The notes under the pieces: generated by a model
What the model saw: the letters and a program-made list of their open reading frames with translations, nothing else
Databases searched by the model: none
What the model was told of the DNA's origin: nothing
In this document: one piece after another, positions 27,186 through 63,981 of the stretch
Layout of the letters: the number at the start of each line of letters is the position of its first letter
Position numbering within the stretch: the first letter of the stretch is position 1
NCBI RefSeq assembly: GCF_014284235.1
Contig: NZ_JACOGD010000002.1
Coordinates: 372,001 to 436,000 of the forward strand
Length of the DNA: 64,000 nt
Origin: Cognatundibacterium curvum
Lineage (GTDB): Bacteria > Pseudomonadota > Gammaproteobacteria > Burkholderiales > Burkholderiaceae_D
Reading direction: 5' to 3'
Position numbers and translations under genes: made by a program

Positions 27186-28142
27186 ATGGCAACAGCACCA
27201 CAAGATCAGCCAGGTTCGCCAGAACCAGCTGGCAAAAAAGCACCGGCAAAAAAAGCGACAGCGAAAAAAGCAGCAGCTAAACCAGCAGCTAAACCAGCAG
27301 CTAAACCAGCAGCTAAAGCGACTAAAGCTGTAGCGAAACCAGCCGCTAAGCCAGCAGCTAAAGCGACCAAGGCAGCAGCGAAGCCAGCAGCTAAAGTCAC
27401 TAAGGCAGCAGCAAAGCCAGCAGCTAAAGCGACTAAGGCAGCAGCGAAGCCAGCAGCTAAAGTAGCGAAAGCGACTAAAGCCGTAGCAAAGCCAGCAGCT
27501 AAAGTAGTGAAGGCGACTAAGGCAGCAGCGAAGCCAGCAGCCAAAGTCACTAAAGCAGCAGCAAAGCCAGCCGCTAAAGTAGCGAAGGCAACTAAGGCAG
27601 CAGCGAAGCCAGCAGCGAAAAAAGCCGCCGCAAAACCAGCAGCTAAGGCGACTAAGGCAGTCGCAAAACCAGCAGCTAAAGTAGCGAAGGCAACTAAGGC
27701 AGCAGCGAAACCAGTAGCGAAAAAAGCAGTCGCTAAACCAGCAGCTAAGGCTGCAACAAAAGCAGTAGCGAAGCCAGCAGCTAAAGCAACGAAGGCAGCA
27801 GCGAAGCCAGCAGCTAAAGCGACAAAAGCAGCAGCGAAGCCAGCAGCTAAAGTGACAAAAGCCGCAGCGAAGCCAGCAGCAAAAGCGACAAAAGCAGCAG
27901 CGAAGCCAGCAGCTAAAGCGACAAAAGCAGTAGCGAAGCCAGCAGCGAAAGCGACTAAGGCCGCAGCGAAGCCAGCAGCTAAAGTGACTAAAGCAGCAGC
28001 CAAGCCAGCAGCTAAAGTAGCGAAAGCCGCAGCAAAGCCAGCCGCTAAAAAAACAGCAGCGAAGAAAACCACTGAAGCGAAAGCAGTTGTGAATGCCAAT
28101 GCAGCATGGCCATTCCCAACCAGCGCGAATCGCCCTGCGTAA
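27186..28142 (+). CDS. Histone-H1-like Lys/Ala/Pro repeat protein
   Basis: The 318-residue product is almost entirely built from a Lys/Ala/Pro repeat of ~10-13 residues, of the type KAAAKPAAKATKA or KPAAKVAKATKA. It resembles the C-terminal tail of eukaryotic histone H1, the AlgP/AlgR3 protein of Pseudomonas and Bordetella BpH1-type proteins, which bind DNA and compact the nucleoid. The start MATAPQDQPGSPEPAGKK and the end NANAAWPFPTSANRPA are the only non-repetitive parts. AAGGAG stands eight bases before the ATG. The repeat DNA makes every other frame open and is prone to slippage, so copy number probably differs between strains. The N-terminus MATAP and the tail composition match the SWIB protein at 5445. 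Confidence 0.85.
   Translation: MATAPQDQPGSPEPAGKKAPAKKATAKKAAAKPAAKPAAKPAAKATKAVAKPAAKPAAKATKAAAKPAAKVTKAAAKPAAKATKAAAKPAAKVAKATKAVAKPAAKVVKATKAAAKPAAKVTKAAAKPAAKVAKATKAAAKPAAKKAAAKPAAKATKAVAKPAAKVAKATKAAAKPVAKKAVAKPAAKAATKAVAKPAAKATKAAAKPAAKATKAAAKPAAKVTKAAAKPAAKATKAAAKPAAKATKAVAKPAAKATKAAAKPAAKVTKAAAKPAAKVAKAAAKPAAKKTAAKKTTEAKAVVNANAAWPFPTSANRPA
27270..28065 (+). repeat. Coding repeat array (AAA/GCA/GCT/CCA-rich) inside the H1-like gene
   Basis: Units of about 30-39 bases, built on GCAGCGAAGCCAGCAGCTAAA with variable GTGACT/GCGACT/GTAGCGAAG joints, are repeated more than twenty times. Units differ by synonymous and Val/Thr/Ala changes, so the array is old rather than freshly duplicated. 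Confidence 0.8.
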
Positions 28143-55591: not shown

Positions 55592-56437
55592 TTAGCTGTT
55601 TTTACCCGGTTTCTGTTGCTGAGGGCAATCGATTTGTATCACATGATGATCATGCAGCCGGACCGCAGTGAGCTGACCGCCCCAGACGCAGCCGGTGTCC
55701 AGGCTGATCAGATTGGATTCAACGATCAGGCCCAGCGTAGACCAATGGCCAAATACCACACACTGATCTGTTGACTGACGTGGTAAATCAAACCAGGCCT
55801 GATAGTGATCCGGCGCTGCGCGTTTGCCTTCCTTGATGGCAAAGTCCATGCTGCCGTCCTGATGGCAATAGCGCATACGTGTCATGGCATTGATGATGCA
55901 ACGCCAGCGTTCTGCACCTTGTAAATCCTCGCTCCAGCGATCAGGCTGATTGCCATACATGACGGCCAGAAAATCCAGCCAATGGTCGGATTGCAGCATC
56001 TGACTGACTTCAGCGCCCAGACACTGTGCCTGCGCGATGCTCCAGTCCGGGAATAAGCCTGCATGGATCAACAAATGGCCTTGTTCCAGATGGGCCAGCG
56101 GACGCTGGCGCAGCCAGTTGAGCAATACTTCACGGTCTTCCGCCTGCAAGATATCTTGCAGAGTATCGGACGGATGCGGTTTGCGTAGGCCGTGCGCCAC
56201 CGCCAGCAAATGCAGATCGTGATTGCCCAGTACTGATTCGGCCCGGCCCGCCAGTTGCAGCTCGCGTATCAGGCGCAAGCTGTCCAGCGATTTGGGGCCA
56301 CGGTTGACCAGGTCACCGGCAAACAGATAGCGCGCACCTGGGGTCTGTGCCTCGGTTTTTTCCAGCAGTTCACGTAACTGATCGGCGCAGCCCTGGATAT
56401 CGCCGATAAAGTAGGTGACTGAGGCAGTTGCGCTCAC
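55592..56437 (-). CDS. apaH: Symmetrical bis(5'-nucleosyl)-tetraphosphatase
   Basis: The 281-residue PPP-family phosphatase has GDIQGC (metal), GDLVNRGPKSLDSLR, LGNHDLHLLAVAHG and ILIHAG-like LLIHAGLFPDW motifs in order, with a later FGHWSTLG and SLDTGCVWGGQLTAVRL. ApaH splits Ap4A into two ADP and also removes Np4 caps from RNA. Its ATG overlaps the hemH stop (ATGA). Confidence 0.94.
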   Translation of the reverse strand: MSATASVTYFIGDIQGCADQLRELLEKTEAQTPGARYLFAGDLVNRGPKSLDSLRLIRELQLAGRAESVLGNHDLHLLAVAHGLRKPHPSDTLQDILQAEDREVLLNWLRQRPLAHLEQGHLLIHAGLFPDWSIAQAQCLGAEVSQMLQSDHWLDFLAVMYGNQPDRWSEDLQGAERWRCIINAMTRMRYCHQDGSMDFAIKEGKRAAPDHYQAWFDLPRQSTDQCVVFGHWSTLGLIVESNLISLDTGCVWGGQLTAVRLHDHHVIQIDCPQQQKPGKNS

Positions 56438-57540
56438 AAAGGCGCCCCGATCCGTTTGGCTTCCGAGCGGCTGATCAATGCCTGTTGTTTTTGCTCTTCG
56501 CGCAGACTGACGGTCATCATCGTTGGCCAGCCTATCAAATGCTGCTCGGCGATTTCTGCCAGCGCGCGTAACCAGGATGGTGACTCATTCAGGCAGGGGA
56601 TGTAATTGAATTCCTTGCCGCCTGCATGTAAGAAGTCTTCCCTGACTTCCATCGCAATTTCTTCCAGCGTTTCCAGACAGTCTGCGATAAAGCCGGGGCA
56701 AATTACATCGATACGTTTAGTGCCTTGTTGCGCTAATTCTTTCACCGCATTCGAGGTGTAAGGCTGCAGCCATTCTGCGCGGCCCAGGCGGGACTGGAAA
56801 GTCACCAGATACTGGTCTTTACTGAGCCCCAGTTTCTCTGCCAGCAGTCTGGCGGTTTTATAGCATTCACAGTGATAAGGATCGCCGCGTAACAGAAAAG
56901 CCTTAGGCAAACCGTGGAAGCTCATCACCAGCTTTTCAGGGCGGCCATGGGTTTGCCAGTGCTTGAGCACAGACTGGCGCAAGGCTTCGATATAGGCATC
57001 GTGATCATGGTAGTTTTTGACCAGACGTAATTCCGGCACATTGCGCACTTGCTGATAATGCTGGAACACGGCATCAAAATTGGATGCGGTGGTGGTTGCC
57101 GAATATTGCGGATAACCGGACAGGATCAGTATCCGTTCATAACCCTCGGCTTTGAGCTTGTTCAGCACCGAAGGGATAGACGGTGAGCCGTAACGCATCG
57201 CATAGGTGACGTGTACTTCATGGCCACGTTCACCCAGATAGCCTTTGAGCAGCAAGGCTTGTTTTTCCGTATGGACTTTGAGTGGCGAGCCGTCTTTAGT
57301 CCAGATAGACGCATATTTTTTGGCGGATTGCCCGGAACGGAAGGGCAGGATGATGCCATTCAGGATCAGCCACCATACCGGACGTGGCACTTCCACTACG
57401 CGTCTGTCCCACAAAAACTGTTTCAGATAACGGCGCACTGCCGAACGTTCCGGCGCATCCGGTGTGCCGAGGTTAAGCAGTACCACAGCTGTTTTACCGA
57501 TCTTGCCATGAGAGTAGTCGGGTTCAGGATAAAAGCGCAT
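56434..57540 (-). CDS. hemH: Ferrochelatase
   Basis: The 368-residue enzyme inserts Fe(II) into protoporphyrin IX. It shows VVLLNLGTPDAPERSAVRRYLKQFLWDRRVVE, the porphyrin-site SGYPQYSATTTASNFD, metal-site His209 in VMSFHGLPKAFLLRGDPYHCECYKTA, and a late ICPGFIADCLETLEEIAMEV with the conserved Glu residues. It has no C-terminal membrane tail, as in other soluble-form proteobacterial HemH. It starts an operon with apaH and acpH. A four-copy 10-bp tandem repeat lies 30 bases before the start. Confidence 0.96.
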   Translation of the reverse strand: MRFYPEPDYSHGKIGKTAVVLLNLGTPDAPERSAVRRYLKQFLWDRRVVEVPRPVWWLILNGIILPFRSGQSAKKYASIWTKDGSPLKVHTEKQALLLKGYLGERGHEVHVTYAMRYGSPSIPSVLNKLKAEGYERILILSGYPQYSATTTASNFDAVFQHYQQVRNVPELRLVKNYHDHDAYIEALRQSVLKHWQTHGRPEKLVMSFHGLPKAFLLRGDPYHCECYKTARLLAEKLGLSKDQYLVTFQSRLGRAEWLQPYTSNAVKELAQQGTKRIDVICPGFIADCLETLEEIAMEVREDFLHAGGKEFNYIPCLNESPSWLRALAEIAEQHLIGWPTMMTVSLREEQKQQALISRSEAKRIGAPL

Positions 57541-57570
57541 ATCAGTGAGTAAAATAAGTTTTTCGGTTAA

Positions 57571-57610
57571 TTGAAACTATGTGAAACTAAGTGAAATTGA
57601 GTGAAACTAG
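57571..57610 (-). repeat. Four-copy 10-bp tandem repeat upstream of hemH
   Basis: GTGAAACTAR-type units repeat four times in exact 10-base register (TTGAAACTAT, GTGAAACTAA, GTGAAATTGA, GTGAAACTAG). On the hemH strand each reads as NTAGTTTCAC. The unit equals one helical turn, so a protein bound to each unit would stack on one face of the DNA. It lies just upstream of hemH. Confidence 0.75.
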
Positions 57611-57613
57611 GCT

Positions 57614-57645
57614 GAAAACAGTCAGCGCAGGTTACAGGCTGCGCT
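57614..57645 (-). terminator. Weak terminator-like hairpin after recN
   Basis: AGCGCAG (57624-57630) pairs with CTGCGCT (57639-57645). On the minus strand a TGTTTTC stretch follows. It lies 23 bases after the recN stop. Confidence 0.4.
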
Positions 57646-57667
57646 ACATGCACGGCTATAGCCTATC

Positions 57668-59314
57668 TCAGGAGGCTAGCAGCTCGCGTGCGTGTTTGCG
57701 CGTGGTGGCTGTGATCTCCAAACCTCCCAGCATACGCGCAATTTCTTCCACACGTTGCTTGTTGTCCAGCGCCGTGATGCTGGAGATGGTTTTGCCATCA
57801 GCTTGCCGTTTGCTGACCTGAAAATGTTGATTCGCCTGACTCGCCACCTGCGGTAAATGGGTGACGCACAGTACCTGCCTTTCCTGACCCAGACGCTTAA
57901 GTAAACGTCCGACCACTTCGGCCACTGCACCGCCTATGCCGCTGTCGACTTCATCAAAAATCAGGGTGGGCGTCGCGGTGGCACAGGAAGTGATCACAGA
58001 AATCGCCAGCGATATGCGTGCCAGTTCGCCACCGGATGCCACCTTGGCCAGCGGGCGGGCCTGTACGCCGGTGTGACCTGCGACTAAAAATTCCGTTTGT
58101 TCTAATCCGTAAGACGCCGGTTCGCAAGGCTGTAAAGCGATAGAAAAACTGCCGCCGCGCATACTCAGATCCTGCATCGCGGTGGTGACTGCCTGTCCCA
58201 GCTGGGCTGCGATATCGCGTCGTGCATGGCTGAGTTTTTTCGCCAGTTCCAGATAGGCTTGCTGCGCTTTTTCTTCTTGCTGGCGTAGGGTTTCCAGGTC
58301 GCTGGCGTCGGACAATTGATGCAATTGTGCCGACAGGGTGTCCAGTTCCAGATGCAGTTTATCTGGCGCTACATGGAAACGCCGGGCTGTGCTGTGTATC
58401 ACATCCACTCTTTGCTCAACCTCGCGCAGACGGGCCGGGTCCAGTTCAGTGCGATTCAGGTAGTCACTCAGCGCATAGCTGGTTTCTTGCAAATGGATGC
58501 AGGCCGTATCCAGCGCATCAGTCACCGGTTTTAAGGCGCTGTCATAAGCCAGCAATTTCAGCAGACGCTGTTGAATTGAAGTGAGCTGAGACAGTATCGC
58601 GTGATCGGCATCCGATATCGCGCCAGCTGCCTGCTGCGCGCCGTCGAGCAGGCTGACAGCATGCGCAAGTTTGCTGTGTTCCTGGCTGATTTGCTCCCAT
58701 TCGCCAGCCTTGAGCTGCAGCTTGCTGAGTTCGCCGACCTGCCACTCCAGCCGTTCACGTTCGAGTAAGACGTTCCTGGTATTGGTTTCAAATTCTTCGC
58801 GCTGACGGGCGATACTGCGCCAATATTGAAACAGCCGTGCGACCTCAGTTACCAGGCCCTGTAAGCCACCTTGGGTATCGAGCAAATCACGCTGCACTTC
58901 ATTGCGCAGTAAGGCCTGATGCGCATGCTGCCCATGAATGTCGATCAATAGCTCGCCGAGTTCGCGTAACTGGGTGGCTGTCGCAGTGATGCCATTAATC
59001 CAGGCTTTGGAGCGACCTGCATTATCGATAGTGCGGCGTAAAATCAGCTGACCGTTGGCATCTGCAAACTCATGCTGCGCTAACCAGTGCTGACTGGCGG
59101 CATGGGTGGAAAATTCTGCGCTGATGTCCGCCTTGGCGGCGCCTTCCCTGACCATACTGGCATCGCCGCGTCCGCCCAGGCTCAGGCTCAGGGCATCGAT
59201 CAGTATCGACTTACCGGCGCCGGTCTCACCGGTCAGCACGCTGAAACCATGGGAAAACTCCAGTTCCAGATGGTCGACGATCACGAAATTCCGGATGGCT
59301 AGGGTACGCAGCAT
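57668..59314 (-). CDS. recN: DNA repair protein RecN
   Basis: The 548-residue SMC-like ATPase starts MLRTLAIRNFVIVDHLELEF. Walker A is GETGAGKSILIDAL, a long coiled coil occupies about 155-370, and the ABC signature ARPLAKVASGGELARISLAI and Walker B TLIFDEVDSGIGG lie near the C-terminus, followed by the QVLCVTHLPQVAS switch. RecN acts in double-strand break repair. It is close to nadK on the same strand with 191 bases between. No LexA-type box is evident in the gap. Confidence 0.96.
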   Translation of the reverse strand: MLRTLAIRNFVIVDHLELEFSHGFSVLTGETGAGKSILIDALSLSLGGRGDASMVREGAAKADISAEFSTHAASQHWLAQHEFADANGQLILRRTIDNAGRSKAWINGITATATQLRELGELLIDIHGQHAHQALLRNEVQRDLLDTQGGLQGLVTEVARLFQYWRSIARQREEFETNTRNVLLERERLEWQVGELSKLQLKAGEWEQISQEHSKLAHAVSLLDGAQQAAGAISDADHAILSQLTSIQQRLLKLLAYDSALKPVTDALDTACIHLQETSYALSDYLNRTELDPARLREVEQRVDVIHSTARRFHVAPDKLHLELDTLSAQLHQLSDASDLETLRQQEEKAQQAYLELAKKLSHARRDIAAQLGQAVTTAMQDLSMRGGSFSIALQPCEPASYGLEQTEFLVAGHTGVQARPLAKVASGGELARISLAISVITSCATATPTLIFDEVDSGIGGAVAEVVGRLLKRLGQERQVLCVTHLPQVASQANQHFQVSKRQADGKTISSITALDNKQRVEEIARMLGGLEITATTRKHARELLAS

Positions 59315-59505
59315 AGCATTCGCTTATCAATGATGGTTACTGTAGGGTTGGTCTGAAATTTGGTCGGAAATCCAGCAGCTTATGGCGGAGGTAACTTCGT
59401 TTGCAGCATAAGAACAAGTGCCACAACATGAGCGCAAACTGCTGCAATTCCCGCCATTATAGGTGAGTCCTGTTACCGTATGAATGCCGTGAGCATGTTA
59501 CAGCT

Positions 59506-62897: not shown

Positions 62898-63344
62898 TTA
62901 ACTTTGCTTGTTTTCCTTGTCTTTGTGCTCGCACTTTTCTTTGGTGCAGTTCCCGTAAATCGCCAGTGCATGTTCTGCAATTTTGAAGCCGCGATCCAGT
63001 GCAATCGCATGTTGTTGCTTCTCGATTTGCTCATCGTAAAACTCTTCTACGCGTCCGCAATCCAGGCAAACCAAATGGTCATGGTGTGAGCCTTCATTCA
63101 GCTCGAAAATTGCTTTGCCCGTCTCAAAATGATTACGATGCAATAAGCCCGCCTGCTCAAACTGCGTCAGCACCCGGTAGACGGTCGCCAGGCCCACATC
63201 CATATTTTCATTGAGCAAAATTTTATAGACGTCTTCGGCGGTCAGATGGCGTACTTTACTGTTTTGAAAAATTTCCAAAATTTTCAGACGGGGTAAAGTC
63301 GCTTTCAGGCCGCTGGCTTTCAGGTTTGAGGTGCTGTTTGTCAT
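62898..63344 (-). CDS. fur: Ferric uptake regulator Fur
   Basis: The 148-residue repressor starts [23 protein letters not shown]. The winged helix includes [33 protein letters not shown]. The metal sites are [16 protein letters not shown] (with the CxxC structural zinc) and a C-terminal [11 protein letters not shown]. Fur represses iron uptake genes when Fe(II) is present. The start at ATG 63344 is preferred to upstream in-frame codons, which would overlap bamE. It is divergent from bamE across 76 bases. Confidence 0.96.
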
Positions 63345-63420
63345 GTTTTCATTCAAAAGAGTGCTATCTGCTTTATGATATCGGGTTTTAGGGCATGTTG
63401 CTCGATTACTGAGGTTACCT

Positions 63421-63981
63421 ATGCGAATGTTGTTTTCAGAATCCATCCCAGTCCATGCTGGCCGGTTCGCAGCGATATTATTGCTGACAGCCTTAAGCGC
63501 CTGCGCATCGAAGACGCCTTTGCTGGCGGATGATGCAAATAAAGCAGACGCTGCAGCGACTGCCAGCTCCGGCACCCAGGTGTATGCGCCTACTGGTGCT
63601 AAAAAGTTTTTAGGCTATATCTCGCCGTATCGCATTACTGTGCAGCAGGGTAATTTTATTTCTCAGGAAATGATGTCCCAAATTAAAGAGGGCATGAATC
63701 GTGAGCAGGTGCGCACAGTGCTCGGCACCGCCTTGTTGACCGATATGTTTCATGAGGATCGCTGGGATTATCCTTTCAATCTGACCAAGCCGAATGGTGA
63801 GCGGATTGTGAGCCGCGTTACGATCCATTTTAAAAATAATCTGGTATCGAAATTCGAAGGCGGTAATTTGCCGAACGAGAAAGAATATCTGGCCCGCATT
63901 ACCGAGTCCGCACTCACTGGTAATCGCGTTGAATCAGTGACTGATCTGGACGGTACACCTAAGAAAAAAGATAAAAAATAA
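63421..63981 (+). CDS. bamE: Outer-membrane assembly lipoprotein BamE
   Basis: The 186-residue lipoprotein has a signal peptide with lipobox LSAC (Cys28). A Ser/Ala/Asp-rich spacer is followed by the SmpA/OmlA domain: [51 protein letters not shown], then [17 protein letters not shown]. BamE stabilises the BamABCDE complex that inserts outer-membrane proteins. GAGG lies six bases before the ATG. The basic tail TPKKKDKK is longer than in E. coli BamE. The gene is complete within the window. Confidence 0.94.

Follow-up and report, generated by a model that had tools for sequence, protein, structure and literature searches.

A variable four-unit tandem repeat ahead of hemH is probably a product of slippage rather than a heme or iron operator

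Introduction

Four copies of a 10-bp unit lie head to tail shortly before the ferrochelatase gene hemH, whose product inserts iron into heme. Does this array, with a period of about one helical turn, serve a regulator of hemH, or is it repeat DNA that arises and decays in a spacer? Cooperative binding of a regulator that senses heme or iron had been proposed in the initial annotation, with slippage-prone repeat DNA as the alternative. In the open-licence PMC literature we found nothing on tandem repeats in Undibacterium and nothing on transcriptional regulation of hemH or heme biosynthesis in Betaproteobacteria; for direct repeats in ferrochelatase or hemH promoters, the portions of that literature available to us contained only work on heat-evolved Escherichia coli.

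We analysed a window of 64,000 nucleotides of Cognatundibacterium curvum, which corresponds to positions 372001-436000 of a 667,821-bp contig, together with the rest of that genome and with the genomes of relatives.

Results

The array and its surroundings

The features of the locus, in window coordinates, are:

56434-57540, minus strand: hemH, ferrochelatase (PF00762, E 5.8e-120)
57541-57566, minus strand: 26 bases adjoining the hemH start, the probable translation start region (three-way alignment)
57541-57667, minus strand: recN-hemH spacer of 127 bp, containing the array (limits set by the ORFs)
57568-57609, minus strand: four imperfect 10-bp units in tandem (TRF score 56; 57571-57610 in the register in which it was first noted)
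57623-57646, minus strand: hairpin resembling a terminator, its T tail weak, on the recN side of the array (consensus scan)
57668-59314, minus strand: recN, the upstream same-strand neighbour of hemH (PF02463, E 6.7e-22)
62898-63575: gene of a Fur-family regulator (PF01475), about 5.4 kb from hemH

On the minus strand, 57571-57610 reads CTAGTTTCAC, TCAATTTCAC, TTAGTTTCAC and ATAGTTTCAA, and 30 bases separate these units from the hemH ATG at 57540. The four 10-bp units that had been described on the hemH strand, 30 bases ahead of the start, were thus recovered by reading and also by TRF (period 10, 4.2 copies, 78% matches). The assignment of the gene as ferrochelatase was likewise confirmed by its PF00762 match, while the name recN was given by eye, from gene order and homology, the PF02463 match being recN-like. 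The proposed unit, NTAGTTTCAC, describes half of the array: two of the four units fit it exactly and the other two deviate from it. When the 127-bp spacer was shuffled 20,000 times with its dinucleotides preserved, 46 shuffles reached a TRF score of 40 and a single one reached 56, so the array is more than an effect of composition. Such a non-random head-to-tail arrangement is what characterizes a short tandem repeat.

No sigma-70-like promoter was found in window 57400-57800. In 401 bp a consensus scan returned two terminator-like sites, where shuffles gave 0.4; the stem of the hairpin at 57646-57623 is broken in Undibacterium crateris, as read from its sequence. An RNA element was considered and rejected: two Rfam matches scored 17.7 and 16.7 bits, well short of their gathering scores (50 and 46), and the predicted RNA fold is ordinary (z −0.92). 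A dispersed repeat or mobile-element remnant was also rejected: the genome holds no second copy of the 127-bp spacer, the next match being 25 bp long with 88% identity (E 0.07).

Comparison of the hemH upstream region among relatives

The closest named ferrochelatase matches, in a list from which the window's own record may be absent, were those of U. crateris B2R-29 and U. rugosum CY7W (99% each), which places the window in an Undibacterium genome. At the level of the locus, identity to the window's genome is 91.8% for U. crateris and 88.0% for U. rugosum. The spacer of U. crateris (G011 in the genome set and L031 in the locus set) measures 117 bp and holds three units, exactly one 10-bp unit fewer than the window; the between-species comparison at hemH thus gives a whole-unit difference in copy number, four versus three. 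In the 103-bp spacer of U. rugosum (L032) no array was found, either by reading or by TRF.

We searched for hemH in 60 genomes. A match was obtained in 34 of the 36 genomes of the same genus, our own included, and the upstream region was read in all 34 (for G019 and G024 the end of recN is not visible within the 160 bases displayed). The array is present in two of them, the window's genome and U. crateris. These searches turned up no second strain of the window's species. In the GTDB collection, where 574 hemH loci were found and 80 kept, 71 had a recognised recN end and one of these, again U. crateris, carried the array. Comparison among species had been suggested in the initial annotation as a check of the repeat, and it showed that neither unit number nor sequence is conserved upstream of hemH.

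When aligned, the three species share 23 of the 26 bases adjoining hemH (57541-57566), while the array differs in length and the recN side of the spacer has diverged. This pattern points to the translation start region, rather than the array, as the constrained part of the spacer. The second unit has the same AATTTCAC form in the window's species and in U. crateris, so at least three units are probably older than the split of these two species, judging from the sequences. Among the 28 other genus members, hemH begins 8-24 bp past the recN stop codon in 12, a gap with little space for a promoter of hemH's own, which suggests that recN and hemH share a transcript in those 12.

Unrelated arrays were seen inside the recN-hemH spacer of other species, at loci L046 (2874-2940, 12-bp unit) and L050 of U. 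flavidum (2927-2966, 8-bp unit); both start at, or adjoining, the recN stop codon. We nevertheless do not claim the spacer as a hot spot for arrays. With U. crateris left aside, it holds three of the six arrays of the matched genus loci described below (p 0.008), an excess that was noticed post hoc; the array at L037, among these three, is weak, with a 13-bp unit and 75% matches, and at the other loci just one of six arrays lies there (L086).

Whole-unit changes in other arrays of the genome

Eight arrays of the window's genome could be compared with U. crateris, and three differed by whole units: one unit of 10 at hemH, one of 12 at 438172 and three of 8 at 639178 (contig coordinates, as for the following). 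The arrays at 407282 and 506276 have the same length in both species, and those at 477737, 482997 and 528216 differ irregularly. A U. crateris array at its position 220046 is mostly absent from the window's genome. In 160 aligned spacers we counted 183 indels of at least 5 bp, of which eight (4.4%, versus 0.7% under the null) are tandem copies of the neighbouring sequence at 80% identity or more; this list misses some cases, for example the three-unit difference at 639178.

The 12-bp array at 438172-438203, 2.2 kb beyond the end of the window (TATTTCCGCACC), is flanked by a TATAAT-like sequence and by an ORF start 8 bp away. Since it is one unit shorter in U. crateris, the two species have 5′ leaders of unequal length at that gene.

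Tandem arrays as a class of spacer sequence

Arrays were defined as intergenic repeats, under a simple ORF mask, with a period of 6-20, at least 2.7 copies and a TRF score of at least 40. The contig contains 25 such arrays in 67.7 kb of spacer, against a mean of 0.10 and a maximum of 1 in 20 shuffles. Their units, of 7-20 bp, are diverse, and the array upstream of hemH ranks 13th of the 25 by TRF score. Every one of five Undibacterium samples contained arrays, 55 in 138.9 kb of spacer, compared with 2 in 58.8 kb from four genomes that belong to other families of the order (p 7.5e-7); the samples from the window's genome and from U. crateris are partly homologous DNA and hence not independent. 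However, in matched hemH neighbourhoods the difference in density was not confirmed (7 arrays in 27 genus loci, L031-L057, versus 6 in 53 others, L058-L110; p 0.40), so we do not call array density a trait of the genus.

Periods of 8, 10, 11 and 12 account for 43 of the 55 arrays, and 12 of the 55 have period 10, more than any other single period. The exact 10-base period had been taken to fit cooperative binding of a regulator, an argument that carries little weight here: 10 lies inside the usual 8-12 bp range, so helical-turn periodicity is background in this DNA. No 5-mer is significantly shared among the units of the 55 arrays (the best p, 0.0004 in 251 tests, does not survive correction).

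For 52 arrays the class of spacer could be determined, and these are distributed unevenly (p 0.0004). Divergent spacers hold 5 against 15.0 expected by length, convergent spacers 15 against 7.1 and co-directional spacers 32 against 30.0. Operators would be expected mostly in divergent, promoter-bearing spacers, and the arrays show the reverse; the array at hemH sits in a co-directional spacer, the class with array numbers at expectation.

Search for further copies of the unit

A pattern search of the window's genome allowing up to three mismatches returned no second three-unit array, and no strict pair ADTTTCA-N3-ADTTTCA outside the array, all three such pairs lying inside it. One unit repeated at many loci, as in a genome-wide repeat family of the TAACTGA type, is therefore not what this genome contains; it has a single array of this unit. 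The loose pair TTTCA-N5-TTTCA, the one spacing at which its excess was measured, exceeds its backward control in the window's genome (26 versus 10), in U. crateris (25 versus 8) and in U. rugosum (17 versus 11).

Three-unit TTTCA arrays with up to two mismatches occur in 28 of 43 genus genomes, with 55 matches versus 28 for the backward control by hand count. We inspected 12 of these places, mostly the better matches, and named the neighbouring genes by eye from translations. They include genes for a U32-type peptidase, htpG and typA, ubiE, an FKBP-type isomerase and oligoribonuclease, a sensor kinase, an aldehyde dehydrogenase and a ParB-like protein. At L219 the left neighbour is an ABC transporter ATPase, which could serve iron, with the array 82 bp past its stop codon. 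At 4 of the 12 places the array lies inside a short ORF of the simple mask. The neighbours at the 12 places have no common or heme theme, and on these places TTTCA arrays as a regulon of the genus were rejected.

Regulatory explanations

The geometry of the array is not absurd for a regulator site, since direct repeats about one turn apart are bound by regulators of the OmpR/PhoB type, as stated in the accessible part of PMC3798270. The same part describes ArcA sites, in which three to five direct repeats are common; these resemble the hemH array in their spacing of about one helical turn and in that more than two units are possible, but they are mostly 11 bp apart and here the period is 10 bp. 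A 10-bp period does lie within the 10-11 bp spacing of OmpR/PhoB direct repeats, and in the genus TTTCA arrays spaced at 10 bp somewhat outnumber their backward controls. Yet a phased site through which such a response regulator, for instance, controls hemH seems to us quite improbable. An operator should be conserved ahead of the gene that it regulates, and this array occurs in 2 of 34 genus genomes, with unequal unit numbers in those two, and in 1 of 71 GTDB loci. ArcA-like sites also differ from it in this respect and in that the window's genome has no second array, even with three mismatches allowed; the three strict pairs are all internal, though loose pairs are in mild excess over their backward control. 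Moreover, the scan of 57400-57800 yielded no sigma-70-like promoter, the class of arrays is underrepresented in divergent spacers, and the 12 TTTCA arrays of other species adjoin genes without a common theme. As for the iron regulator Fur, a Fur-family gene does lie within the window and hemH puts iron into heme, but a Fur operator at the array is barely conceivable: the best match in the spacer to the 19-bp Fur consensus is 10/19, and 71% of 435 window pieces of the same length do as well or better. The Fur box of a Fur-regulated promoter is accordingly lacking in the recN-hemH spacer by that consensus, and LexA and CIRCE boxes, also sought with consensus strings, matched no better than background. 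Since copy number and sequence are not conserved, the genome has no second array and nothing Fur-like rises above background, the idea that a heme or iron regulator binds here cooperatively is not supported, and we dropped the candidate operator.

The array might instead act through its length, unit number setting the distance from an upstream signal to hemH and tuning expression heritably and reversibly. Its position 30 bp ahead of the start codon and the unequal unit number in sister species would fit, and the available part of PMC4081817 describes a repeat rheostat at the Helicobacter pylori sialic-acid adhesin, likewise a gene-near repeat of changeable length. There, however, the repeat sets expression, and the units of the hemH array are imperfect. 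There is no evident promoter, and the short recN-hemH gaps in 12 of 28 other genus members suggest a joint transcript. Contingency loci consist of pure repeats, which also argues against this reading, and we consider it quite unlikely too, if slightly less so than a phased site.

Discussion

The array is a real, non-random and variable tandem repeat of a known kind, and probably a recent one. By far the best account of it, in our judgement, is a short tandem duplication that was resized by slippage, is decaying by point mutation and has no dedicated role in the control of hemH. The duplication would have arisen in the recN-hemH spacer in the lineage that the window's species shares with U. crateris. 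Its growth to three or four 10-bp units would be due to slipped-strand mispairing or else to recombination between misaligned units, and a unit may then have been gained or lost by slippage while point mutations accumulated, through which the array would now be decaying. It would be one of many arrays, mostly with a unit of their own, that appear and vanish in non-coding DNA, and its greatest effect on the hemH locus would be an altered spacer length. The alternative of slippage-prone repeat DNA, which the initial annotation had placed beside its operator, has fared well: the sister species differ by one unit, U. rugosum has none, arrays are many and diverse, and two others vary by whole units.

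Some observations count against slippage. Five of the eight comparable arrays show no whole-unit difference; because the units are imperfect, slippage need not be active at present. That period 10 is the commonest would also be expected from a helical preference, and the TTTCA-N5-TTTCA pairs and three-unit TTTCA arrays (55 versus 28) exceed their backward controls.

Among known systems, the array is closest in form to bacterial intergenic short tandem repeats (VNTR, minisatellite-like), which likewise have a short head-to-tail unit in a spacer and a whole-unit difference between sisters, although here there are just four imperfect units and the variation is known between species. The intergenic TAACTGA direct repeats of Beggiatoaceae, as the available part of PMC4679880 presents them, are also short, located in spacers and often near a start codon; but in that case a single genome carries 169 sets of one unit, whereas here there is a single array of the unit and the other arrays of the window's genome have other units.

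The hemH array itself is less interesting than the frequency of such arrays in these spacers, which we find mildly so. Since arrays of 8-12 bp are common background in these genomes, a helical-turn period by itself is weak evidence of a binding site there. If a raised density held true in a full survey, Undibacterium would be a handy system for the birth and decay of spacer arrays. More speculatively, 8-12 bp arrays might be born at a raised rate in Undibacterium, perhaps in Oxalobacteraceae, the recN-hemH spacer might repeatedly have gained unrelated ones, and array length there might serve as an evolvable, slow-acting means of adjusting hemH expression; this combination seems to us rather unlikely.

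Two further repeats lie in the window. Two 12-bp tandem copies (TTGGTCGGAAAT) occupy 59348-59371, about 34 bp ahead of the recN ORF start. A long array at 27234-28069 has units of 12, 33 and 66 bp, all multiples of three, and is likely a Lys- and Ala-rich coding repeat, as judged by eye from the DNA.
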